Both the position numbers and the translations under genes were made by a program. Below are positions 17,425 to 30,598 of a stretch of 39,703 nucleotides of DNA, in pieces. The DNA comes from an uncultured Clostridia bacterium (GTDB taxonomy: Bacteria; Bacillota; Clostridia; Christensenellales; CAG-138). The notes beneath the pieces were generated by a model. That model did not search any database. It was not told where the DNA came from and was given only the letters and a program-made list of their open reading frames with translations. Where the stretch lies: the NCBI GenBank assembly GCA_947168565.1, contig CAMVMM010000020.1:1-39703 (forward strand), given 5' to 3'. Positions within the stretch are counted from its first letter, which is position 1, and every line of letters begins with the position of its first letter.

Positions 17425-18966
17425 TCAATAATCCTCAAGCTCGAATTCGATGATGGTCACGGAGTCGCTCACCTCGCTCACTGGCTCCACGGCCTTCGCC
17501 TTTTCGACCCTTGCAAGCTTGAGCTTATACACCACGCCGAGTATCTGAATTGTGATAAGCGGAGTGAGCGCAACCATCGCCACAAGCCCGAAAGCATCGG
17601 TGGACACGTCGCCGCCGAGCGCGGCGCAGGCGCCGATCGCAAACGGCAGCATGAACGTGGCGGTCATGGGTCCGGAGGCCACGCCGCCGGAGTCAAACGC
17701 GATCACGGTGAATATCTTCGGGCAAAGGAACGAAAGCTCTATTGCAAGCGCGTAGCCGGGTATCAGAAAATACCAGAGGGAGATGCCCGTTACAACGCGC
17801 AGCATGGATATGCCGAGCGACACCGCCACGCCTATCGACAGGCTGAAGAGCATCGCCCTGTGTGAGATGGCGCCGACGGTTATCTCCTCCACCTGCTTTG
17901 TGAGCACGCGCACCGCAGGCTCCGCCATTACCACCACGAAGCCCAGCACCACGCCGATGGGTATGAGTATCCACGGCCTGCCCGCTCCCGCAAGCGCCTC
18001 GCCGAGATATTTGCCGGCGGGCATGAAGCCCACCTTGACGCCGAGCAGAAACAGCACGAGCCCGATATAGGTATACAAAAGGCCCACGCCCATGCGCGCA
18101 AGCATATTCACGGGAAGGTGCAGGAATATCAGCTGAAACAATCCGAAAAGGAGCACGACCGGCACGAGCGCAAGCGCCACCTCACCGAGGAACTCCGGCA
18201 GGTTTTTGGCAAACTCAACTATGACCGAGCGAAAATCGGTGAATTTGACCGCTTCAGCGCCGTCCGACACAATGCCGCCGTTTTTGGAGGCCATGCCCAG
18301 TATCAGCATGGCAAGGATGGGGCCGATGGAGCAGAGGGCGACTATGCCGAAGCTGTCGTCCTGCGCGCTTCTGCTGCCGCGAACGGAAGCAAAGCCGATG
18401 CCGAGCGCCATAAGAAACGGCACCGTGATAGGGCCGGTGGTAACGCCGCCGGAGTCGAACGCTATCGGCACGAAGCTGCCGGATTCTATCGCCGTGGTGC
18501 CGGCAAGCGCGAACACGAGCACGTAGGACGCGAGCAGAACGCGCGTAAGATCGCCTTTTTTGATAACGCGAACGAGCGCTATAACGAGGAATATGCCCAC
18601 GCCCGCCGCCACGGTAAGCACTATGAGCGGCGTGCTCAGCGATTCAAACTGATCCGCAAGCACCTGAAGATCGGGCTCCGCCACGGTTATCAGCATTCCT
18701 ATGAAGAAAACGAGCGGAATGAACACCGCGTAGCTTTTTGATTTGATTATGTGCGCGCCGATCCTCTCGCCCATCGGCATCATTGCCACGTCCGCGCCGA
18801 GAGTGAAGATGCTCATGCCGAACACGAGCAGCACCGCGCCGATGAAGAACGCCGCAAGCATGGCGGGCGGCATTGGGGCGATGAGCTGAAGCAGAAGCAC
18901 GATTATAAAAACCGGCAGCACTGAAGCGATCGCTTCCTTCAGTTTTTCCCTGAGCTGCTTTTTCAA
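17425..18966 (-). CDS. DUF1538 polytopic membrane protein with internal duplication
   Basis: A 513-residue protein with about a dozen hydrophobic segments and a charged cytoplasmic-looking tail. It is clearly two homologous halves. GADVAMMPMGERIG (57-70) matches GVKVGFMPAGKYLG (309-322), and AEPDLQVLADQ (97-107) matches AEPAVRVLTKQ (348-358). AFDSGGVTTGP (169-179) matches AFDSGGVASGP (423-433), and DDSFGIVALCSIGP matches TDAFGLVAMVALTP. Pseudo-symmetric halves with conserved DSGG motifs in the membrane are typical of secondary transporters; the substrate is unknown. The start is a TTG at 18966 with a GGAGG site seven bases upstream; no ATG fits. It leads an operon with two P-II-like genes and L-serine dehydratase, so an amino-acid or ammonium-related substrate is a reasonable guess only. 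Confidence 0.85.
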   Translation of the reverse strand: MKKQLREKLKEAIASVLPVFIIVLLLQLIAPMPPAMLAAFFIGAVLLVFGMSIFTLGADVAMMPMGERIGAHIIKSKSYAVFIPLVFFIGMLITVAEPDLQVLADQFESLSTPLIVLTVAAGVGIFLVIALVRVIKKGDLTRVLLASYVLVFALAGTTAIESGSFVPIAFDSGGVTTGPITVPFLMALGIGFASVRGSRSAQDDSFGIVALCSIGPILAMLILGMASKNGGIVSDGAEAVKFTDFRSVIVEFAKNLPEFLGEVALALVPVVLLFGLFQLIFLHLPVNMLARMGVGLLYTYIGLVLFLLGVKVGFMPAGKYLGEALAGAGRPWILIPIGVVLGFVVVMAEPAVRVLTKQVEEITVGAISHRAMLFSLSIGVAVSLGISMLRVVTGISLWYFLIPGYALAIELSFLCPKIFTVIAFDSGGVASGPMTATFMLPFAIGACAALGGDVSTDAFGLVAMVALTPLITIQILGVVYKLKLARVEKAKAVEPVSEVSDSVTIIEFELEDY

Positions 18967-19343: not shown

Positions 19344-19934
19344 TTGGCAAAGCTGATTGGCAGGCGTTACCAATACACCAAGGATTATAAAACAACGCCT
19401 TACCTCGGCCCGAACGGCCGCGAGGAAAAGCGCCTTGTGTACGTCGGCAAGTGGATAAATCCGCTGAATGACGAGGCCGAGCTCAAGCGCATCGTGCTTG
19501 TGTCCCGCCTGCTGGTTGCAGCTTCCCTTATAGCGTTCATCTTCGCCATGTTCATCCTTCCCCCGCCCACCGAGGGCAAGTGGTTTCTGCTTCCGCTTGT
19601 CACCGCCGTGTTCCCGCTTGCGTATGAAGTGATGGCAGCGTTCCGCCTTCCAAATAAAAAGGAAAAAATGGAACGCATAAATTTTGACAAAAGCTTCATC
19701 CGTTTAAAGCATTCATCCGTTATATGTATAGTAATGGTTCTTCTGTCGGCTCTCGGGCTCATCGTTTACTGGGCGCTCGCCCTATTCGGGGTGTTTGAGC
19801 CTCCCGCGCCGTTTGCGGCGGGCGATGCGCTGTATGCGCTGGGCGTGGCCGCGCTTGCCGCAGCAAGCTTCATCATCTACCGTCAAATGAAACTTGTGCG
19901 CACGGAGGAGCTTGAAAACAGCACGATGCTTTGA
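19344..19934 (+). CDS. Four-helix membrane protein of unknown function
   Basis: I do not recognise the family. The 196-residue chain has a basic, Tyr-rich N-terminal segment of about 48 residues. Four hydrophobic helices follow, at about 49-71, 80-98, 125-149 and 158-178, then a short charged tail. The loop between helices 2 and 3 is strongly basic (NKKEKMERINFDK). The start is a TTG at 19344 with GGGAGG eight bases upstream; no ATG gives the same match to a ribosome site. It has its own promoter at 19222-19250 and lies 140 bases before the binding-protein gene on the same strand, with no clear terminator between. A link to the transporter is possible but unproven. Confidence 0.75.
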   Translation: MAKLIGRRYQYTKDYKTTPYLGPNGREEKRLVYVGKWINPLNDEAELKRIVLVSRLLVAASLIAFIFAMFILPPPTEGKWFLLPLVTAVFPLAYEVMAAFRLPNKKEKMERINFDKSFIRLKHSSVICIVMVLLSALGLIVYWALALFGVFEPPAPFAAGDALYALGVAALAAASFIIYRQMKLVRTEELENSTML

Positions 19935-19959
19935 TCCTTACCCATGAGGGAAAACCACT

Positions 19960-20034
19960 TTGGAAAAAGATAAGTCGAGGATGCCGCCGCGCTTTTACGG
20001 CGCGAAAGCACTCCGACCACCATCCGGCTCTTAA
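19960..20034 (+). other. Possible 24-codon leader peptide before the oppA-like gene
   Basis: A TTG at 19960 with GAGGG about nine bases upstream opens a 24-codon frame rich in Arg, Lys, Pro and Ser, ending at a TAA 40 bases before the binding-protein ATG. It resembles the TTG-start context of the gene before it. Nothing else supports translation. Confidence 0.2.
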
Positions 20035-20074
20035 AGTGTTTCCATACGCACAATAACTTTTTAGGAGGAAAAAA

Positions 20075-22600
20075 ATGCGTAAACTCAGTAGAATCCTTGC
20101 AGTTCTGCTCGCCATGATCATGGTGCTGGGCGCTTTCGCAGCTTGCCAGCAGCAGAACACAGATCCGACCCCCGCTCCCCAGCCCACTGAGGGTGCGGAA
20201 AAGACCCCCGACTCCCAGGCCACTCCCGGCGGCGAAACCACCAATCCGCCCGAGACCGACAAGCCCGTGGATGTGACCGACGTTCCCGACGTTCCCCTTG
20301 TAGTTGCTTACAGCACCTTCTCCCAGAAGTTCAGCCCCTTCTATGCCGACACCGCATACGATCAGGATGTCGCCGGCATGGTCGGTCTTGGCCTTATGAC
20401 CACTGACCGTATGGGCGGTATCATCTACAACGCGATCGAGGGCGAGACCGTTTCCTACAACGGCACCGATTACAAGTACACCGGCATTGCGAACCTTGAC
20501 GTAAACTACGACAAGACTTCCGACACCACCGTTTACAAAGCTGAGATCCGCAAGGACCTCAAGTTCTGGGACGGCAAGCCGGTTACCGCGAAGGACATTC
20601 TCTTCACCTACTACACCTACCTTGATCCCACCTACGTTGGATCCACCTCCCTCAGCTCCTACGATATCGTAGGTCTCCAGAACTGGCGCACCCAGACCTC
20701 CGACGAGGTTTACACCAAGTACGCCGAGATGGCAAAGAAGATCTACGCGGCGGGCCGCGGCGGCTACACTGCCAACGAGGACTACACCGAGGAGCTTTAC
20801 AACAACTATTGGAAGACCGTTGACGATGCATGGAAGGCAGAGTGCCAGTTCATCGTTAACTACTGCATGAACAAATACCTTGCCACTTACGGCGAGCAGA
20901 TGGTAGGCAAGACCCCCGATGAGATCAAGGCAAACGAAGGCCTCCAGGTCGCTTTCGGTATGGCCGCTTGGGGCTTTGGTGAGCTTGGCGAGGACGGCAA
21001 CTTCACCGACGGCACCAACAGCTGGGATCTTTCCACCACCTTCCCCACCATTGAGGATTACTACAACGCCAGCTTCGCCAAGTACAACGGCGACGCCGAG
21101 GCGTTCTTCACCACCGAAGCCACCGGCGACGAGTCCGCTTCCGTCGTGGCCGCAGCCGATGCCAACTTCATCTCCACCTACGGTCCCCAGGACCCCGACA
21201 TGGGCGGCAAGGGCATCAACTCCATCTCCGGCATCAAGATGGTTGACGATTACACCGTTGAGGTCACCGTTAAGGGTTACAGCGCTCCCGCTGTTTACTC
21301 CATCCTCGGCATCACCATCACCCCGATGCACTACTATGGCGACGAGTCCAAGTGGGATCCCGAGAACGGCAAGTATGGCTTCGATTTCGGCGATCTGACC
21401 ACCCAGAAGGACAAGACCGAGGTTCCGCGCGGTGCGGGCGCCTACATCTTCGAGTCCTACAAGGACAAGGTCGTTACCTTCAAGGCCAACCCCAACTACT
21501 ACAAGGGTGAGCCCATCATCAAGACCATCCTCTTCAAGGAAACCACCTCTGCCGAAGTTGCGACCGCTATCAAGACCGCCGATGCCGATGCGGGCGAAAT
21601 GACCGGCTCCCGTACCCGTTTCCAGGAAGTTGCGGACATCAACGGCAATGGCGAGATCAACGGTCCCGTCATCACCACCAGCAAGGTTGACAACCTCGGC
21701 TACGGCTACATCGGCATGAACGCCGACACCGTGAACGTTGGCGGCAACCCCAGCTCCGATGCTTCCAAGGCTCTGCGTAAGGCTATCGCAACCGTTCTTG
21801 CCGTATATCGTGACGTTGCTTACGAGTCCTACTACGGCGAGGCTGCTTCCGTGATCCAGTACCCCATCTCCAACACCTCCTGGGCGGCTCCTCAGGCTTC
21901 CGACCCGGATTACAAGATCGCTTTCTCCGTTGACGCGGACGGCAAGGATCTCTACACCGCTTCCATGAGCGCTGATGAGAAGTACGACGCCGCTCTGGCG
22001 GGTGCTCTCACCTGGTTCGAGAAGGCCGGCTACACCGTCACCGACGGCAAGCTCACCGCTGCTCCCGAGGGCGCAAAGACCGAATACGAGGTTATCATCC
22101 CCGCTGACGGTAACGGCGACCATCCCTCCTACATGGTTCTGACCATGGCCCGCGAAGCATTCGAGAAGATCGGCTTCACCCTCATCATCAATGACCCCGC
22201 GAACTCCGACATCCTTTGGGACACCCTTGATGCCGGTACTCAGGAGCTTTGGTGCGCGGCTTGGGGCTCCACCATCGATCCCGATATGTATCAGGTCTAC
22301 CATGGCAGCAACATCGTTGGCAAGGACGGCACCGACTCCAACCACTATCATATCGACGATGCACAGCTCAACGAGCTCATCATGGAAGGCCGTACCTCCG
22401 ATGACCAGAGCTTCCGTAAGACCATTTACAAGCAGTGCCTCGATATCATCGTTGATTGGGCAGTTGAGATCCCCGCTTACCAGCGTCAGAACTGCATCGT
22501 GTTCAGCACCGAGCGCATCAACCTCGACACCCTGACCCCCGACATCACCACTTTCTGGGGCTGGACGAACGACCTCGAGGCGCTTCAGATGAACTATTGA
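20075..22600 (+). CDS. oppA: Extracellular solute-binding lipoprotein, family 5 (oligopeptide/dipeptide type)
   Basis: The N-terminus is a lipoprotein signal peptide: MRKLSRILAV, a hydrophobic core, then LGAFAAC with the lipidated Cys at 24. A Gln/Thr/Pro-rich linker follows (about 25-65). The rest is a class C peptide-type binding protein: FSPFYADTAYDQDVAGMVGL, YKAEIRKDLKFWDGKPVTAKDI (the family's hallmark), YTVEVTVKGYSAPAVYSIL, VPRGAGAYIFESYK, and a C-terminal YHIDDAQLNELIMEGRTS. At 841 residues it is much longer than the usual 540-600, with extra aromatic-rich sequence around 190-330. A strong AGGAGG site precedes the ATG. It is the first of five transporter genes; the peptide class bound cannot be told from sequence. 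Codon use is strongly biased, suggesting high expression. Confidence 0.93.
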   Translation: MRKLSRILAVLLAMIMVLGAFAACQQQNTDPTPAPQPTEGAEKTPDSQATPGGETTNPPETDKPVDVTDVPDVPLVVAYSTFSQKFSPFYADTAYDQDVAGMVGLGLMTTDRMGGIIYNAIEGETVSYNGTDYKYTGIANLDVNYDKTSDTTVYKAEIRKDLKFWDGKPVTAKDILFTYYTYLDPTYVGSTSLSSYDIVGLQNWRTQTSDEVYTKYAEMAKKIYAAGRGGYTANEDYTEELYNNYWKTVDDAWKAECQFIVNYCMNKYLATYGEQMVGKTPDEIKANEGLQVAFGMAAWGFGELGEDGNFTDGTNSWDLSTTFPTIEDYYNASFAKYNGDAEAFFTTEATGDESASVVAAADANFISTYGPQDPDMGGKGINSISGIKMVDDYTVEVTVKGYSAPAVYSILGITITPMHYYGDESKWDPENGKYGFDFGDLTTQKDKTEVPRGAGAYIFESYKDKVVTFKANPNYYKGEPIIKTILFKETTSAEVATAIKTADADAGEMTGSRTRFQEVADINGNGEINGPVITTSKVDNLGYGYIGMNADTVNVGGNPSSDASKALRKAIATVLAVYRDVAYESYYGEAASVIQYPISNTSWAAPQASDPDYKIAFSVDADGKDLYTASMSADEKYDAALAGALTWFEKAGYTVTDGKLTAAPEGAKTEYEVIIPADGNGDHPSYMVLTMAREAFEKIGFTLIINDPANSDILWDTLDAGTQELWCAAWGSTIDPDMYQVYHGSNIVGKDGTDSNHYHIDDAQLNELIMEGRTSDDQSFRKTIYKQCLDIIVDWAVEIPAYQRQNCIVFSTERINLDTLTPDITTFWGWTNDLEALQMNY

Positions 22601-22643: not shown

Positions 22644-22676
22644 CAGTTGAGCCCACCCATTCGGTGGGCTCAACTG
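22644..22676 (+). promoter_or_regulatory. Intercistronic stem-loop between binding protein and permease genes
   Basis: A perfect 14-bp stem (22644-22657 with 22663-22676) closes a five-base loop. No T run follows, so it is not a standard terminator. Such hairpins commonly stabilise the upstream binding-protein mRNA or limit read-through into the permeases. A smaller imperfect stem lies just upstream (about 22617-22636). Confidence 0.75.
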
Positions 22677-22726
22677 AAATTCCGGCAAAATATACGCGGC
22701 ACCGGAACCGCGAGAGGGTGGTATAC

Positions 22727-23716
22727 ATGTGGAAATTCCTACTTAGGAGAATTCTATTAGGTATCCTGATAGTCATTCTGGGTGCGTTCGTAACCTATAC
22801 GGTTATCCGCCTGCTCCCCACCGACTATCTGAAGAAAATGGCAAGGCAGTTTGCTGCCTCTTCCAACGGACGAATCAAATGGGAAGACATGTACGAGTCG
22901 CTCAAGATTCAGTACGGTATGAACACCAACGTCGTCTTTGGCTACGTTAAATGGCTCGGTGACGCCATTACCGGTAATTTCGGCGATTCATGGATGTACA
23001 TGAAGCCCGTTACCGCAGTTTTCAGCGAGGTTATCTGGTGGTCCGTTCTTATGAACGTTATCACACTCATCGTTGAGGTTCTGATCTCCATCCCCCTTGG
23101 TATCCTTGCGGCACGCAAGCAGTACCACTTCACGGATTACGCGGTCACAGTCTTTGCGCTGGCATGTATCTCGCTGCCATCGTTCTACATAGGCACCGTT
23201 TTCAAATACGTATTCGCGGTCAAGCTCAATATCCTTCCGCTGTACGGCTTGACGGGCCGAATGTATGAGCAGCTCTCCACTCTTGGCAAGATAGGCGACA
23301 TAGCTCAGCATCTTATCATGCCCGTTGCAACGCTTGCCATTCTTTCCATCGGCAGTCTGATGCGTTTCACGCGCACCAATATGCTCGAGGTTCTTAATTC
23401 CGACTACATCCGTACCGCAAGGGCGAAGGGCCTTAATGAAAAGGTCGTTGTAAACAAGCACGCCTTCCGCAACACGCTGATCCCCCTCGTAACGGTATTC
23501 AGCGGACTGCTTCCCAGCTTCTTCGGCGGCGCTATGATCACTGAAACGATCTTCCAGATCCCCGGTATCGGTTATAAATCATTCCAGGCTATGCTCCAGG
23601 GTGATATTCCTTTCGCAATGTTCTACACCACGTTCCTGATGGTTCTGACCCAGGTCAGTCTTATCCTGTCGGACATCATGTACGGCTTGGTAGACCCGCG
23701 CGTTCGCGTCAATTAA
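22727..23716 (+). CDS. oppB: Oligopeptide-type ABC transporter permease, OppB/DppB family
   Basis: First transmembrane subunit of the importer. MWKFLLRRILLGILIVILGA is the typical N-terminal helix. A long extracytoplasmic segment follows, with six helices in total. The coupling-helix (EAA) motif that docks on the ATPase is NSDYIRTARAKGLNEKVVVN, followed by HAFRNTLIPLVT. The C-terminal DPRVRVN is a family signature. I start at the ATG at 22727, with an AGGGTGG-like site about six bases upstream; an in-frame extension to 22664 runs through the intergenic hairpin. The 329-residue length is normal. It follows the binding protein by 126 bases and precedes oppC by 12. Confidence 0.94.
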   Translation: MWKFLLRRILLGILIVILGAFVTYTVIRLLPTDYLKKMARQFAASSNGRIKWEDMYESLKIQYGMNTNVVFGYVKWLGDAITGNFGDSWMYMKPVTAVFSEVIWWSVLMNVITLIVEVLISIPLGILAARKQYHFTDYAVTVFALACISLPSFYIGTVFKYVFAVKLNILPLYGLTGRMYEQLSTLGKIGDIAQHLIMPVATLAILSIGSLMRFTRTNMLEVLNSDYIRTARAKGLNEKVVVNKHAFRNTLIPLVTVFSGLLPSFFGGAMITETIFQIPGIGYKSFQAMLQGDIPFAMFYTTFLMVLTQVSLILSDIMYGLVDPRVRVN

Positions 23717-23728
23717 GGAGGTACTTTT

Positions 23729-25966
23729 ATGGCTAAAGACAATAAGGCTCAAGAGCCGAAGAAGCAGGAAGTGCTCCAGGAAAACGAGCAGATGGCGCTC
23801 GACGACGCGCGCCGAGTCAAAGTTCTGTCCCCCGGTATGCTTGTTTTCAAGCGCTTCATCCGCAACAAGCTTGCCGTGATCGGTATTATCATTCTTGCCG
23901 TAATGTTTATCTTCTCCTTCCTCGGACCGCTCTTCTCCCCCTATTCAAGAGCGCAGATCTTCTTTAAGGACGTTGAAGAGCCCGGCGATTACGCGACCGG
24001 TAAATACGTTGACGGCTCCCTCTTCTACCCCAGCAACAACACCGCGCTGAATTCCGCAGTGCTCAAGACGCTCGGCGCAACGAAGGTTGCCGGCAAGTAT
24101 TCGCTCACCGCCGGTGAGGAGATCCCCTTCGCCGCAGGCACCGAGCACTACACCCTTAAGATTATCAATCCCGATCCTCAGAAGCCGAGCTGCGCCGTTT
24201 ACGGCACCACTCATATCGCCACCGCCGCAAAAGGCGAGGTCACCTGGTATGATGAGTCCTTTGTGGACGATGCTCTGCTCGTTGCGATCAGGGAGAACGC
24301 CGCTCAGGAAAACCCCGGCACCGAGCTTGCGTACAACGGAATGACCATTTCCGTTGAAGCCACCAGGCTTGAGATAAAGTATTACGCTCCCTCCAGCGAG
24401 CCCGTTGCGGTTTCATCCTACAACAGCTACTCCCCCATGCTCGGCCGCGCCGAAGCTCTTTCCGCGAACACCGAATTCCTGCACAACGTTGAAAACGCCA
24501 TCAAGGCCGGTGAAACCTCCGTTGCGCTTGACGGCGAGACCTACACCATCACCGGCGACGTGATGAACGACTACGTTCTTTCCGCGTCCGACGGCACTCC
24601 GCTTTTCAACGTTGTTCGTGAGTTCCAGTCCAAGACCCTCAAGATCGAGGAGGAGGATGCGGACGGCAACCCCGTTACGAGGGATAAGGACTTCCTTTCC
24701 ACCCTCTCCGATCCCACCGCCTTCATCGCCGCAGTTCGCACCGCGATCAGCGAGAAGGCCGAAAGCGTTGATTTCGACGACAACACCTATTCCATCGAGG
24801 AAAACGATACCGACTATCTCGTTTCCAACGTGGACGGTCAGATCGGCATGCAGGTGGTTATCGCGTTCGACCCCGTTGAAACCAAGTATGATTCGCTCAG
24901 CTCCGATTTCAACTTCATCAACCAGATGGAAACCGCCATCGCGGGCGGAGCGGGCAGCTTCGAATACAACGGCGAAACGTATAATCTTACCGCTGAAGAC
25001 GCAGGCTATACCGTGCAGAACCAGGCGGGCGACAATGTCGTGCTTGCTTCCAACATCGTGTACGGCCCCGCGAAGAACGGCATAGAGCTTACTGCGGACT
25101 TTGCAAACAAGCTTCGTGAAGCCATCGTCAATAAGCAGAACAAGTTCTCCTTCGTTGACCAGTACGGCGACAAGACCGACGCCGAGATCGAGCTGAAGGT
25201 CGGCAACTACTACGTCCGCACTCAGCAGAAGACCTCCCTGTTTGACTCAAGGGCTCCCCTTTCCGCCAAGCACTTGCTGGGCACCGACGTAAACGGTATG
25301 GACGTTTTCACCCGTCTGATGTACGGCGGCAGGGTTTCACTTCTGGTCGGCTTCGTGGTCGTTATCTTCGAGATAGTGATCGGCGTTATCATCGGCGGTA
25401 TCTCGGGCTACTTTGGCGGCGTTGTGGATACCATCCTGATGCGTTTCGTTGAGCTTTTCAACGCCATCCCCACCTACCCGATGCTCATCATCATCGGCTC
25501 CGTTATGGACGGTATGCGCGTTGACGCTACCACGCGACTGTTTATGACGATGGTCATCCTCGGCGTTCTGGGCTGGACCGGTATCGCCCGTATCGTTCGC
25601 GGCCAGATCCTCTCCCTCCGTGAGCAGGACTTCATGGTTGCAACCGAAGCGACCGGTATCCGCACAAGCCGCAGGATCTTCCGCCACCTCGTTCCCAACG
25701 TTATGCCTCTGCTCATCGTTAACGCGACCTCCGCTCTCGGCGGCATCATCCTTACCGAGGCGACCCTCGGCTTCCTGGGTCTCGGCGTTAAGTACCCGAT
25801 GGCATCCTGGGGCTCGATCATCAACCAGGTCAACGATATGCAGGTCATGCAGACCAACTGGTGGATCTGGATCCCCGCCGGCTTGCTTATCCTGCTGACG
25901 GTTCTCGGCTTTAACTTCGTTGGCGACGGTCTGAGAGACGCGTTCGACCCGAAGATGAAGCGCTAA
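23729..25966 (+). CDS. oppC: Oligopeptide-type ABC transporter permease, OppC/DppC family, with a giant extracytoplasmic insertion
   Basis: The second permease subunit, but 745 residues instead of about 300-350. Residues 1-75 are the normal OppC N-terminal segment with the first helix (about 48-68). Residues 515-745 are the normal permease domain, beginning HLLGTDVNGMDVFTRLMYGG and including the coupling motif EQDFMVATEATGIRTSRRI and C-terminal GDGLRDAFDPKMKR. Between them lie about 430 soluble residues in the first external loop. They are built of at least four degenerate units (starting near 248, 329, 393 and 457) and perhaps a fifth near 175. Each unit has a helix ending in AI, then a strand pattern like YNGETYNL, then a Tyr-Val pair. 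A GGAGG site precedes the ATG. Reading frame and codon bias are continuous, so this is not a frameshift artefact. Confidence 0.93.
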   Translation: MAKDNKAQEPKKQEVLQENEQMALDDARRVKVLSPGMLVFKRFIRNKLAVIGIIILAVMFIFSFLGPLFSPYSRAQIFFKDVEEPGDYATGKYVDGSLFYPSNNTALNSAVLKTLGATKVAGKYSLTAGEEIPFAAGTEHYTLKIINPDPQKPSCAVYGTTHIATAAKGEVTWYDESFVDDALLVAIRENAAQENPGTELAYNGMTISVEATRLEIKYYAPSSEPVAVSSYNSYSPMLGRAEALSANTEFLHNVENAIKAGETSVALDGETYTITGDVMNDYVLSASDGTPLFNVVREFQSKTLKIEEEDADGNPVTRDKDFLSTLSDPTAFIAAVRTAISEKAESVDFDDNTYSIEENDTDYLVSNVDGQIGMQVVIAFDPVETKYDSLSSDFNFINQMETAIAGGAGSFEYNGETYNLTAEDAGYTVQNQAGDNVVLASNIVYGPAKNGIELTADFANKLREAIVNKQNKFSFVDQYGDKTDAEIELKVGNYYVRTQQKTSLFDSRAPLSAKHLLGTDVNGMDVFTRLMYGGRVSLLVGFVVVIFEIVIGVIIGGISGYFGGVVDTILMRFVELFNAIPTYPMLIIIGSVMDGMRVDATTRLFMTMVILGVLGWTGIARIVRGQILSLREQDFMVATEATGIRTSRRIFRHLVPNVMPLLIVNATSALGGIILTEATLGFLGLGVKYPMASWGSIINQVNDMQVMQTNWWIWIPAGLLILLTVLGFNFVGDGLRDAFDPKMKR
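24470..25228 (+). repeat. Coding repeats inside the OppC extracytoplasmic insertion
   Basis: Four degenerate units of about 50-80 residues are seen at the protein level. They open with TEFLHNVENAI (residue 248), TAFIAAVRTAI (330), NFINQMETAI (395) and DFANKLREAI (457). Each then has a Ser-x-hydrophobic strand and a (D/Y)x(G/D)(E/N)TY-like turn, best seen as LDGETYTI, FDDNTYSI and YNGETYNL, followed by a second strand ending near a Gly or Asp. DNA identity between units is low, so this is an old duplication. Confidence 0.65.
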
Positions 25967-25979
25967 GTGAGGTAATATT

Positions 25980-27134
25980 ATGGCAAAGACAAAAGGCGTA
26001 AATTATATCTCCAGGAAAGAATCCGCAAGGATCTCCCGCGAGAATCGCAGGATCACGCGCGCGATCGAGAAAAAGCGCAATCGCAAGCACGTCGATCCTT
26101 CCGAATACCTGACGAAGATGCGTGATGACAACAACGTCGTCGAGTTCGACAACGTTCACACCTACTTCTTCACCGACATCGGCACCGTGCGCGCTGTTGA
26201 CGGCGTTTCCTTCGACGTTCCCCGTGGAAAGACCGTCGGTATCGTTGGCGAATCCGGCTGCGGCAAGTCCGTTACCTCCCTTTCGCTGATGCAGCTCGTT
26301 CAGCGTCCGCAGGGTCAGACCGTTGAAGGTCAGATCCGCTTCAATGCCGGCGATGGCAACGTGTACGACATTGCAAACACCCCCACCAAGGTCATGCAGA
26401 CCCTGCGCGGCTCCAAGGTCGCAATGATCTTCCAGGAGCCCATGACCTCGCTCAACCCCGTTTTCCGTATCGGCCAGCAGCTCAACGAGGTGCTTGAGCT
26501 CCACTACCCCGATTGGACCGACGAGCAGGTCAAGGCGCGCACCATCGAAATGCTGAAGATGGTCGGCATCGCAAACAGCGAGGGCGTTTACATGATGTAT
26601 CCGCACGAGCTTTCCGGCGGTATGCGTCAGCGCGTTATGATCGCTATGGCGCTTGCCTGCGACCCCAAGCTCATCATCGCAGACGAGCCCACCACCGCGC
26701 TTGACGTTACCATTCAGGCGCAGATCCTCGACCTGCTGCGCACCCTCAAGGACCGCATCAATTCGAGCATCATGCTCATCACCCACGACCTCGGCGTTAT
26801 CGCCGAGATGGCGGACTACGTTGTGGTCATGTACTCCGGCCGTATCGTTGAGCGCGGTACCGCCAGCGAGGTTTTCCACAACCCCTGCCACCCCTACACC
26901 ATCGGTCTGATGGCTTCCAAGCCCGTTGTAAACCGCCGCGTTGACCGCCTTTACAGCATTCCCGGTTCGGTTCCGAACCCGGTCAACATGCCCGACTACT
27001 GCTATTTCCGCGATCGCTGCGAGAAATGCGTTGACAAGTGCAAGGGCGAGTATCCGCACGAGGTTTATGTCAGCCCGACCCACATGGTAGCCTGCTACCG
27101 TTATCAGGACTATAGGGATAAGAAGGAGGACTAA
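25980..27134 (+). CDS. oppD: Oligopeptide ABC transporter ATP-binding protein, OppD/DppD family
   Basis: One of two ATPases energising import. Walker A is GESGCGKS (90-97), the Q-loop [10 protein letters not shown], the signature LSGGMRQR (211-218), Walker B LIIADEP (231-237) and the H-loop His269. The C-terminal peptide-transporter extension holds five cysteines (341, 347, 350, 354, 372) in a pattern like the 4Fe-4S-binding domain described in some peptide-transporter ATPases. Ahead of the ATPase fold is an unusual, strongly basic segment of about 50 residues ([20 protein letters not shown]). A GAGG site precedes the ATG; the gene starts 13 bases after oppC and ends two bases before oppF. 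Confidence 0.95.
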
Positions 27135-27136
27135 CC

Positions 27137-28249
27137 ATGGAAGCTGTTGAAAAAACCAAGAAGGCAGCCGAAAAGGCAAAGGAAGAAGTGAAGGAAACGG
27201 TTCAGGACGCAAGAAAGACCACCTTCGAGCAGCTTGAGGAAAGGATCAAAACCATCAGGGAGGAGCCGCCGATCAAGCACGATCCGGCGAACGTTCTTGA
27301 GGTTCACAACCTGCTCAAGTACTTCCCCATCAAGACCGGCCTCTTCTCCCGCGTAACCGGCTACGTTCGCGCTGTTGACGGCGTTTCCTTCAACATCAAG
27401 CGCGGCACCACGATGGGCCTTGTCGGTGAATCCGGCTGCGGCAAAACCACCGTTGGCAAAACCATTCTCAGGCTCACCGAAAAGACCGCGGGTCAGGTGC
27501 TCTTCAACGGCACCGAGATCCACGATCTGCCCAAGGCGGAGCTTCGCAAGATAAGGCCGAAGATCCAGATGATTTTCCAGGATCCGTACTCCAGCCTTTC
27601 GCCCCGTCTTCCCATCGCGGAGATCATCGGTGAAGCGGTTCGTGAGCACAACATCATCCCCAAAGAGGATATGGACGATTATCTCGATCAGGTAATGAAG
27701 CAGTGCGGTCTGCAGCCCTACCACAAGGACCGTTATCCGCATGAGTTCTCCGGCGGTCAGCGCCAGCGTATCTGCATCGCGCGCTCCATCGCTCTGAAGC
27801 CCGACTTCATTATTTGCGACGAGCCCGTTTCCGCTCTGGACGTTTCCATTCAGGCGCAGATCATCAACCTGATGATGGATCTTCAGAAGGAGCTCGGCCT
27901 CACCTACCTGTTCATTTCGCACGATCTCTCCGTCGTTGAGCATATCTCCGACACGATCGGCGTTATGTACCTTGGCAACATGGTTGAGTATGCCGACAAG
28001 GAATCGCTGTTCGCCCATCCGCTGCATCCCTACACCGAGGCGCTGTTCTCCGCCATCCCGATCCCCGATCCGGACTACAAGATGAACCGCGTTATCCTTC
28101 AGGGAAGCATCCCCTCCCCCGCCAACCCGCCTGCGGGCTGCAAGTTCCACACTCGCTGCTCCAAGTGCATGGGCATCTGCGGAGAGGTTGCCCCCGCTGC
28201 AAAAGAGGTTGAGCCGGGTCACTTCGTTGCCTGCCACCTCTACGATTGA
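27137..28249 (+). CDS. oppF: Oligopeptide ABC transporter ATP-binding protein, OppF/DppF family
   Basis: The second ATPase. Walker A is GESGCGKT (97-104), the Q-loop [12 protein letters not shown], the signature FSGGQRQR (204-211), Walker B FIICDEP and the H-loop SHDLSVV. A Cys cluster in the C-terminal extension (335, 341, 344, 348, 366) mirrors that of OppD. The first 45 residues are a Lys/Glu-rich amphipathic helix ([20 protein letters not shown]), absent from standard OppF proteins of about 320 residues and likely a coiled coil. An AAGGAGG site precedes the ATG. A small membrane-protein gene follows ten bases later. Confidence 0.95.
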
Positions 28250-28859: not shown

Positions 28860-30563
28860 TTATTCTATGCCGCTCATATCAAATTTTACGATCCATGCGG
28901 CGGCGGTTTTTGAGATCTCCACAAGGCAGGCGGGATCAAACGGCGTTTTGAGCCCCGCTCCCTCGAGCAGCTCCGTGAAGGTGCGGCTGCCGCCCGGGAT
29001 CGTATACGCCATATAGCGCTCCCACGCCTTATCGGGATCGCGCCGCATCAGCGCCCAGAATTGCAGCGCCACGGTCTGCGCAAGGCAGTAATCGATATAA
29101 TAAAACGGATCGCTGTAGATATGCGACTGGCGCTGCCAATACCTGCCCTCGGAGAAGAACGGGATCTCCCCGTCCAGCCTGATCCACGGCATATAGATGC
29201 CCGTGAGACGCTTCCACTCCTCGTGCCTCTGTGCGCTCGTCAGCTCCGGATGCTCGTACACGATATGCTGAAAATGATCCACCATCGTGCCGTACGGAAT
29301 GAAGGTCAGCGCGTCCGAAAGATGGCTGTACATGAATTTTTTTGCATCCCTGCCGAAGAAGCCCTCAACGTTCCGCCATGCGAAAAACTCCATGCTCATG
29401 GAATGCACCTCGCAGGCCTCCATGCTTGGGAAGGCGTATTCGGCGGGAACCCGCTTGCGGCTGAGCCAATGCGCGAAGGCGTGGCCCGCTTCATGCGTCA
29501 CCACCTCCACGTCGCCCTGTGTGCCGTTGAAGTTCGCAAATATGAACGGCACCTCGTATTCGGGCAGCCCCGTGCAGTAGCCTCCGCCCTGCTTGCCCTC
29601 CCTGCTTTCAAGGTCCATCAGCTCGCTCTCGCGCATCATGCGGAAAAATTCGCTCGTTTCGGGCGAAAGCGCATCGTAGAATCTGCCTGCTTCCGCAACT
29701 ATATCCTCCGCGCTCCCCTGCGGCCTTGGGTTGCCGCTTCTGAAAAACAGCGCGCAGTCCGCATAGCTGAGCGGATAGCTCTTGCCGATGCGCTTTGCCT
29801 GCTGCATGCGGATCTTGCTCGCTATCGGCACTATGTAATCCCGCACCGCCTGCCTGAAGGTCTCCACGTCCTGCTTTGTGTAGCAATTGCGCATCATTCG
29901 GCAGTAGCCAAGCTGCGTGTAGCCGTCATAGCCAAGCTTTCTGCCCATAAGATCGCGCAGCTTCACAAGCTCATCGTAGATCGCGTCCAGCTTTTCAGCA
30001 TTGGAAGCGTACCATTCGCCCGTTGCCTTCCACGCCGCAAGCCTTCGGTCGTCGTCCTCCAGCGTGTTGAAGGCGGACATCTCGGATAGGGTATACACTC
30101 CCCCCTCAAACGGTATGCGCGCGGAGGCAAGCAGCTTTTCGTATTCGCTCTCAAGCTCGTTTTCACGCTTCAGCTCCGGCACTATCTCCGGCGAAAACGC
30201 CTTTTGCGCCAGCTCCGCGTTTATGAACATCAGCTCGCCGAATTCCTCCGAAAGCTGCCTGCGGAAGCTTGAGGCAAGCAGTGCGTCCTTGAATTCCTGC
30301 TCGTACTGCTGAAGCTCCGGTGTGAAGGCATCCCAGAAATCGTTTTCCGCATCGTAGAATTCATCCCGCGTATCGATCGAATGACGGATGCCGCTGAGCT
30401 CCTGCATGGTCGAATAGCTTTTTGTAAATCCTTCCTTATCAAGAAAAACCTTCCGCGCCTGCTCATAGCTTGAAGCGGTGCCGAGCGCCTTCGTCAGCTC
30501 CGTCCATTTAGCCTTCACGGCCTCCGGATCCGGCCTTTTGTACGTAATCTCAGAAAATTTCAT
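28860..30563 (-). CDS. M3-family oligoendopeptidase (PepF-like zinc metallopeptidase)
   Basis: Cytoplasmic zinc peptidase that cuts medium-length peptides. The 567-residue protein has the M3 active site VVTHEAGHAFAHWLSRK (HEAGH at 357-361) and the third-ligand region SMEACEVHSMSMEFFAW about 25 residues on. The preceding FIFANFNGTQGDVE is also typical. The length and the short N-terminal domain fit the M3B PepF group. I start at the ATG at 30563, with AGGAGG about eight bases upstream, not at the adjacent TTG. It is convergent with the peptide transporter operon, which fits a role in breaking down imported peptides (inference). Its stop codon abuts the repeat element copy 2, and no separate terminator is visible. 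Confidence 0.93.
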   Translation of the reverse strand: MKFSEITYKRPDPEAVKAKWTELTKALGTASSYEQARKVFLDKEGFTKSYSTMQELSGIRHSIDTRDEFYDAENDFWDAFTPELQQYEQEFKDALLASSFRRQLSEEFGELMFINAELAQKAFSPEIVPELKRENELESEYEKLLASARIPFEGGVYTLSEMSAFNTLEDDDRRLAAWKATGEWYASNAEKLDAIYDELVKLRDLMGRKLGYDGYTQLGYCRMMRNCYTKQDVETFRQAVRDYIVPIASKIRMQQAKRIGKSYPLSYADCALFFRSGNPRPQGSAEDIVAEAGRFYDALSPETSEFFRMMRESELMDLESREGKQGGGYCTGLPEYEVPFIFANFNGTQGDVEVVTHEAGHAFAHWLSRKRVPAEYAFPSMEACEVHSMSMEFFAWRNVEGFFGRDAKKFMYSHLSDALTFIPYGTMVDHFQHIVYEHPELTSAQRHEEWKRLTGIYMPWIRLDGEIPFFSEGRYWQRQSHIYSDPFYYIDYCLAQTVALQFWALMRRDPDKAWERYMAYTIPGGSRTFTELLEGAGLKTPFDPACLVEISKTAAAWIVKFDMSGIE

Positions 30564-30598
30564 CAAATGCTCCTCCTGTTTGATTCTGGATCGGTGCT

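Follow-up and report, generated by a model that had tools for sequence, protein, structure and literature searches.

The opp operon and its OppC

The window, by which we mean the whole 39,703-nucleotide stretch of DNA analysed here, contains a complete operon-like row of genes, oppA-oppB-oppC-oppD-oppF, arranged around a C-type permease that carries a large insert between its first two membrane helices (TM1 and TM2):

20075..22600, + strand: oppA, OppA-type binding lipoprotein, 841 aa (SBP_bac_5, E 1.8e-35)
22664..23716, + strand: oppB, OppB-type permease, 350 aa as listed, without a large insert (BPD_transp_1, E 4.9e-37)
23729..25966, + strand: oppC, OppC-type permease with a large TM1-TM2 insert, 745 aa, unbroken frame from ATG to stop
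23828..23962, + strand: OppC_N with TM1, residues 34-78 of OppC (Pfam E 1.6e-12, 47.6 bits, cut-off 23.9)
23963..25243, + strand: extracytoplasmic insert, about residues 79-505 (to about 510), between OppC_N and BPD_transp_1
25382..25963, + strand: BPD_transp_1 permease core, residues 552-745 (Pfam E 1.7e-28, 100.1 bits, cut-off 26.4)
25980..27134, + strand: oppD, OppD-type ATPase (Pfam ABC_tran and oligo_HPY)
27137..28249, + strand: oppF, OppF-type ATPase (Pfam ABC_tran and oligo_HPY)

The OppC core is intact at both ends, as the first-pass annotation had read it, with OppC_N and BPD_transp_1 both recovered by Pfam, and the top matches to the oppC product in a PDB sequence search are OppC/DppC chains covering residues 505-744. 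Opp4C is the nearest NCBIfam model, its equivalog cut-off of 350 bits being missed at 339.1 bits, and the best NCBIfam model for OppB is Opp4B (222.8 bits, cut-off 450), with residues 22-348 lying on profile positions 1-319. In OppA, residue 24 is a lipobox-like Cys, and the sequence after it is rich in P, T and E. The same genome has one further OppC-like match, weak and at 25% identity. Within contig limits, the order oppA-B-C-D-F is common to the window and the repeat-bearing related regions that were read.

A gene for an M3-family peptidase adjoins the operon on the opposite strand (28860-30566, −), and relatives of it occur in 3 of the 42 related opp regions scanned (L082, L099 and L100); as a neighbour it is a circumstantial pointer to peptide import by this system. 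Upstream of the operon lies a gene for a DUF1538 protein (17425-18966, −). An open frame of 822 aa runs antisense to oppA (19883-22351, −) and more long antisense frames stand opposite oppD and oppF, all of them probably a by-product of codon composition.

By hydropathy, TM1 of OppC occupies residues 42-73 and the next membrane-like segment is at 529, with no membrane-like hydropathy inside the insert (best 19-residue window 1.07). The TM1-TM2 loop is outside and free of membrane helices, in agreement with its earlier placement on the side of the binding protein. It measures 438 residues past the TM1 block, compared with 37-47 in the rows without an insert (4 of the 48 in our tree), which bears out the earlier figure of about 40 residues for a normal loop. 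The insert is acidic (pI 4.27, 66 D+E versus 30 K+R) and has a single cysteine.

Family searches with the insert

No Pfam or NCBIfam family reached its cut-off within the insert and PDB sequence searches with it returned nothing convincing (best E 0.032, 0.1 and 0.095), so in these collections it did not turn out to be a well-characterised OppC subfamily domain, the outcome that had been named as fatal to the first reading. We regard several matches below cut-off as short local resemblances: NF047331, a phage head-tail joining protein (in 3 of 16 inserts, at best E 1.8e-5; 16.6 bits in the window, cut-off 33), the spiralin repeat NF038028 (15.2-15.4 bits and E 0.02 for the window insert, cut-off 45; best of 16 inserts E 0.0011), Lsr2 (2 of 16 inserts, best E 0.0015) and DUF3882. 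RCC1 repeats gave no Pfam match to the window insert at E<=1. Among the matches listed from open-licence papers, titles and the starts of abstracts described neither such an OppC loop domain nor an RCC1-OppC, and the one loop mentioned in the passages of PMC10191383 consulted concerns another protein.

These searches also bear on the proposal that the insert anchors the transporter to peptidoglycan or a surface layer. Its size and outside location would suit such an anchor, and one weak S_layer_N match exists (1 of 16 inserts, E 0.02), but no sorting or wall-binding family reached cut-off in Pfam or NCBIfam and OppC is already a membrane protein. Wall anchoring, one of the roles first offered, thus finds no support, and we regard it as very improbable.

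A tandem array of degenerate units

Self-BLAST of the single window sequence gives no repeats, so the units are degenerate. They were detected by profile comparison, using nine aligned six-unit sequences and 40 column shuffles per pair as a control. On this and the evidence of relatives, the insert comprises six degenerate units, each 53-80 residues long and the first of them a probable one, where at least four had been claimed (domain E values below are from a unit HMM built partly from the window's own units, a proviso that applies to U3, U4 and U5):

24026..24244, + strand: repeat unit U1, residues 100-172, tied in via V1 of four-unit relatives
24245..24451, + strand: repeat unit U2, residues 173-241 (against U3, U4 and U5, 0/40 shuffles as high)
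24455..24694, + strand: repeat unit U3 and following hairpin, residues 243-322 (unit HMM domain E 3.4e-22)
24695..24892, + strand: repeat unit U4, residues 323-388 (unit HMM domain E 3.1e-22)
24893..25084, + strand: repeat unit U5, residues 389-452 (unit HMM domain E 2.9e-25)
25085..25243, + strand: repeat unit U6, shortened, residues 453-505 (against U3, U4 and U5, 0/40 shuffles as high)

Of the copies that the unit HMM finds in the window, three are strong and one is weak, and the profile scores of U3-U4, U3-U5 and U4-U5 are 59-62 versus a shuffle maximum of 17. Units U2 to U6 are related beyond column shuffles except for the pair U2-U6, which is not above chance (18 of 40 shuffles reached the real score).

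For U1 the direct comparisons are weaker, since between 1 and 19 of 40 shuffles reached its real score with each of the five other units, and its link runs through relatives with four units (V1-V4). There, V1 matches U1 at 88%, U3 at 92% and V2 at 96% probability, figures without a shuffle control. The four-unit register continues into the window with V3-U5 at 99% and V4-U6 at about 99% (98.9%), and into relatives with three units (T1-T3) with T1-V1 at 99%, T2-V3 at 99% and T3-V4 at 98%; T1 and U1 do not match each other directly (probability 0.4%). Given the register of V1, U1 is probably a repeat unit too. V2 resembles U5, U4, U2 and U3 at 96-98% and has no counterpart in the three-unit class, and U3 and U4 look like extra units of the V3 type. 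We dropped the idea that the last unit descended from the short loop: no-insert loops compared with V4 beat 40/40 shuffles, but at 2.7% probability over 15 columns, and shuffles scored as high in 4/40 cases for U6 and 1/40 for T3.

In the AlphaFold2 model of the insert, every unit has a helix and strands, with low confidence outside U3-U4; U1, in the low-confidence part, has a helix and four strands, as does U5 when modelled alone (pLDDT 76.8, pTM 0.61). The predicted unit fold would be a helix plus three or four strands, confidently so just for U3-U4 and one single unit. A repeated unit is predicted, so the absence of any repeated fold, which would have told against the first reading, was not encountered.

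A ladder of loop sizes among relatives

The insert is no local oddity, for relatives in the order and class have about 3, 4, 5, 6 or more units by length, and some carry a short loop. If any OppC is counted, a match at E<=1e-30 is present in 86 of the 103 genomes of the family. We examined thirty OppC frames, which come from the best matches and so are no random sample; in this set L032 and L033 represent the corresponding loci of two genomes. With a unit HMM trained on this same set, 25 of the 30 have at least two unit matches (domain E<=1), 4 are short and have none, and 1 appears to carry an RCC1 propeller. Farther out, as lower bounds throughout and with the window's genome counted each time, the insert query (E<=1e-3) matches in at least 19 of the order's 396 genomes and the unit profile (E<=1e-6) in at least 7 of the class's 391, the other six of these 7 aligning as OppC of 538-616 aa. 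A four-unit insert query matches in at least 2 of the phylum's 398 genomes, one being that of the window and the second belonging to its class. Another 20 OppC genes, picked for odd frame length, include 11 with at least two unit matches (domain E<=1, many weak), and 8 of these 11 are 683-725 aa long; five of the eight, when re-read, have loops of 370-391 residues, which we term five-unit by size alone. A scan of viral contigs gave one short-loop OppC, L066.

Loop lengths past the TM1 block rise in steps across the tree rows (212-214, 272-310, 375, 438-460 and 535 residues), and a loop of exactly 438 recurs in half of the six-unit rows (5 of 10), including that of the window. On a tree of 48 OppC cores, from which the insert was excluded, the 7 loop states, named by our own length bins, require 8 changes versus 26.3 in shuffles. 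The 6 three-unit rows cluster together (100/99), as do the 7 RCC1 rows (100/100). The four-unit row L073 falls among the six-unit rows, for which two changes are therefore required. Of the four rows lacking an insert, three cluster with one five-unit row (95/95) and are nested among repeat-bearing rows, a placement that suggests loss of the insert there; the fourth is the outgroup, whose branch is long, and the rooting is unsure.

An unrelated module at the same site, and free-standing copies

In a separate permease clade, RCC1-type repeats were found by Pfam between OppC_N and BPD_transp_1 in all 5 of the OppC proteins tested:

L090:5224-7209; L105:5105-7084; L095:6116-8113: RCC1-loop OppC
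L091:3489-5438; L093:3489-5471, − strand: RCC1-loop OppC

These proteins resemble the window OppC in holding a module, with a loop of 329-335 residues, at the same place in an OppC-type permease, and differ from it in the RCC1 repeats themselves and in forming a clade of their own. The unit HMM has no match in the RCC1-type frame L030 or in L126-L128. A 490-residue piece of RCC1-OppC is matched over nearly its full span in 24 of the order's 297 genomes; among these matches, RCC1 content is established by Pfam for those that belong to the five tested proteins. The upstream neighbours of three RCC1 systems are SBP_bac_5 proteins of 765-794 aa.

Two side observations concern other enlarged parts of such systems. 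The OppF proteins of RCC1 systems (L090, L091, L092, L093, L094, L095, L105 and L106) have 513-544 aa, and in L095, the sole one tested, Pfam splits ABC_tran into two stretches, so an insertion in that ATPase is probable. In the OppC proteins L117, L118, L120, L125 and L129 the outside loop is short, but TM1 is preceded by a long N-terminal extension, presumably cytoplasmic in all of them and in L117 rich in K, A and T.

Copies of the insert also occur apart from any permease. In genome G101, a 372-residue protein with a signal-like N-terminus by eye (L097:2660-3775, −) is 39-48% identical to the insert where they match, and a pair of frames that abut (L096, 1109-1771 and 1775-2551, −), one of 259 and one of 221 residues, match most of it at 41-48%, all besides the OppC of that genome (L087), which itself has a large insert.

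If the array itself bound peptides or another extracellular ligand, such as a wall or plant polymer, it could concentrate that ligand near OppA, with the number of units setting capacity or reach. Tandem small acidic units in loops whose size differs between lineages, an RCC1-type propeller at the same spot in a sister clade, the secreted-looking free copies of G101 and the M3-family peptidase gene beside the operon, with its few relatives elsewhere, would all fit such a function, which we rate as possible though on the unlikely side.

Selection on the insert

All 427 insert codons align with those of four relatives (L033, L103, L067 and L068, in that order below). Identity in the insert is 74, 66, 51 and 49% versus 90, 89, 88 and 86% in the core and, as local BLAST figures, 77.7, 77.7, 71.0 and 78.1% in OppA. 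By NG86, and so roughly, dN/dS is 0.21, 0.30, 0.44 and 0.36 in the insert and 0.14, 0.20, 0.12 and 0.15 in the core. The insert is under purifying selection and evolves faster than the core; complete codon alignment at such identities with dN/dS of this size is what a folded, selected domain would be expected to give.

Selection weighs against an error of assembly or gene prediction, as does the presence of the gene, nearly full length and at 64-80% identity, in other assemblies, including the MAG records L032 and L033; the genome is a draft of 54 contigs, and even so we give an artefact next to no credence. It also bears on whether the insert is a stalk with little specific binding, either a spacer keeping the mouth of the permease clear of wall polymers or a shield against proteases or phages. 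Such a stalk would fit the faster evolution than in the core, the differing loop sizes, the unrelated fold that can occupy this position and the lineages without the insert, but the recurrence of one exact loop length in half of the six-unit rows is more constancy than a mere spacer needs, and dN/dS well below 1 likewise exceeds its requirements. We judge a stalk of this kind to be unlikely.

OppA size and anchoring

The insert had been linked to the unusual size of the binding protein, a tie that dissolves on comparison with relatives. Across the tips, OppA length follows loop length (rho 0.66, n=30 repeat-bearing systems), lengths being counted from the first possible start codon so that some (L073, L082 and L098) are too long. 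Independent contrasts, with RCC1 systems left out, give r 0.10 (p 0.60), or r 0.22 (p 0.22) with three no-insert systems included, so the correlation is gone after phylogenetic correction. Three relatives without the insert have OppA proteins of 688, 819 and 826 aa, and the two longer ones speak against the link.

We also considered whether a repeat-bearing OppC holds an OppA that lacks a membrane anchor. In eight repeat-OppC systems (L073, L078, L079, L134-L137 and L145) OppA has a signal-like N-terminus and no lipobox by regular expression, and in two more (L077 and L144) the lipobox is doubtful. As a control, 21 of 28 SBP_bac_5 loci in ten non-window genomes (nine of family f4, one of f1; 28 loci read from 30 fetched, the N-terminus of L157 uncertain) also lack a lipobox, and Lgt and LspA families are present in 11/11 genomes. 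Since such proteins are common in those genomes, their occurrence says nothing about OppC and the idea was rejected.

A possible role at the outer face of the importer

What stands of the first interpretation is a repeat-built extracytoplasmic domain on the docking side of the permease; its ties to an oversized OppA and to the wall do not. The outside loop of OppC between TM1 and TM2 would have expanded to six helix-plus-strand units in a row, an array standing beside the docked, peptide-loaded OppA. There it may act as an outer platform or guide, helping to hold OppA on the permease or shielding the handover of peptide, much as the two extracellular domains of AmiC are modelled to clamp their binding proteins. 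A docking role is plausible because the TM1-TM2 region contacts the binding protein in two studied systems (AmiC/AmiD and DppB), an analogy from which we infer that the array meets OppA and may influence transport. The place of the loop between TM1 and TM2, its lack of a hydrophobic segment, the gene order shared with relatives, the selection on all 427 insert codons and the stepped loop lengths also speak in favour.

Several results count against a docking or guiding platform. OppA length is unlinked to loop length once kinship is removed; the insert evolves faster than the core (whose dN/dS is 0.12-0.20), which a large obligatory interface does not favour; in four relatives it is less conserved than OppA; and in G101 the domain also occurs with no permease attached. 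We therefore hold this reading tentatively, at somewhat less than an even chance. Because lineages differ in the size of the loop and may have a different fold in its place, the array would tune the system rather than form part of an obligatory transport cycle.

More speculatively, the TM1-TM2 loop of OppC could be a plug-in socket in Clostridia that takes either a repeat array of lineage-dependent size or an RCC1 propeller, its modules capturing a class of extracellular ligands and presenting them ahead of OppA, a broader view that we consider doubtful. We know of no peptide ABC importer with a second receptor layer ahead of its binding protein. As far as we are aware, Opp/Dpp importers are usually described as a binding protein and permease in which no more than one outside loop is enlarged, that of the B-type subunit. 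A group of bacteria within one order and class appears to have added an undescribed domain, variable in size, to the outer side of the C-type subunit, and in a sister clade a propeller. If the module contacts OppA or the substrate, it would add a layer to the choice or handover of peptides by these importers, and relatives ranging from no unit to six or more provide a natural series in which its effect could be tested.

Comparison with known systems

One point of comparison is AmiC, which we take to be an OppB-type subunit. By description, AmiC of Streptococcus pneumoniae is like the window OppC in having a large folded extracellular part between TM1 and TM2: it has 498 residues, is the larger partner of AmiD, and its residues 31-278 form ECD1/ECD2, modelled as clamping the binding proteins, with AmiD contributing just a coil (64-99) that touches lobe 2 in AlphaFold-Multimer models (PMC11192437). 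Its enlargement consists of two domains in that account, whereas the window enlarges its OppC-type subunit by tandem units, and the AmiC-type trait of an enlarged OppB-type subunit is absent from the window, where the 350-aa OppB fits the Opp4B profile end to end.

The scoop of E. coli DppB is likewise a periplasmic TM1-TM2 element at the binding-protein interface, sitting in the DppA cleft by cryo-EM, but according to that report it is about 30 residues long, consists of two short helices and belongs to the B subunit (PMC12136057). Also close are Opp4C, OppC and DppC proteins (NF045476; PDB 8z21 and 8z1v), which share OppC_N, the BPD_transp_1 core, the operon setting and oligo_HPY ATPases with the window. 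In the PDB relatives the core match starts at chain residue 57-76, so their loop is short, and it is at this point that they differ from the window OppC with its roughly 430 residues.
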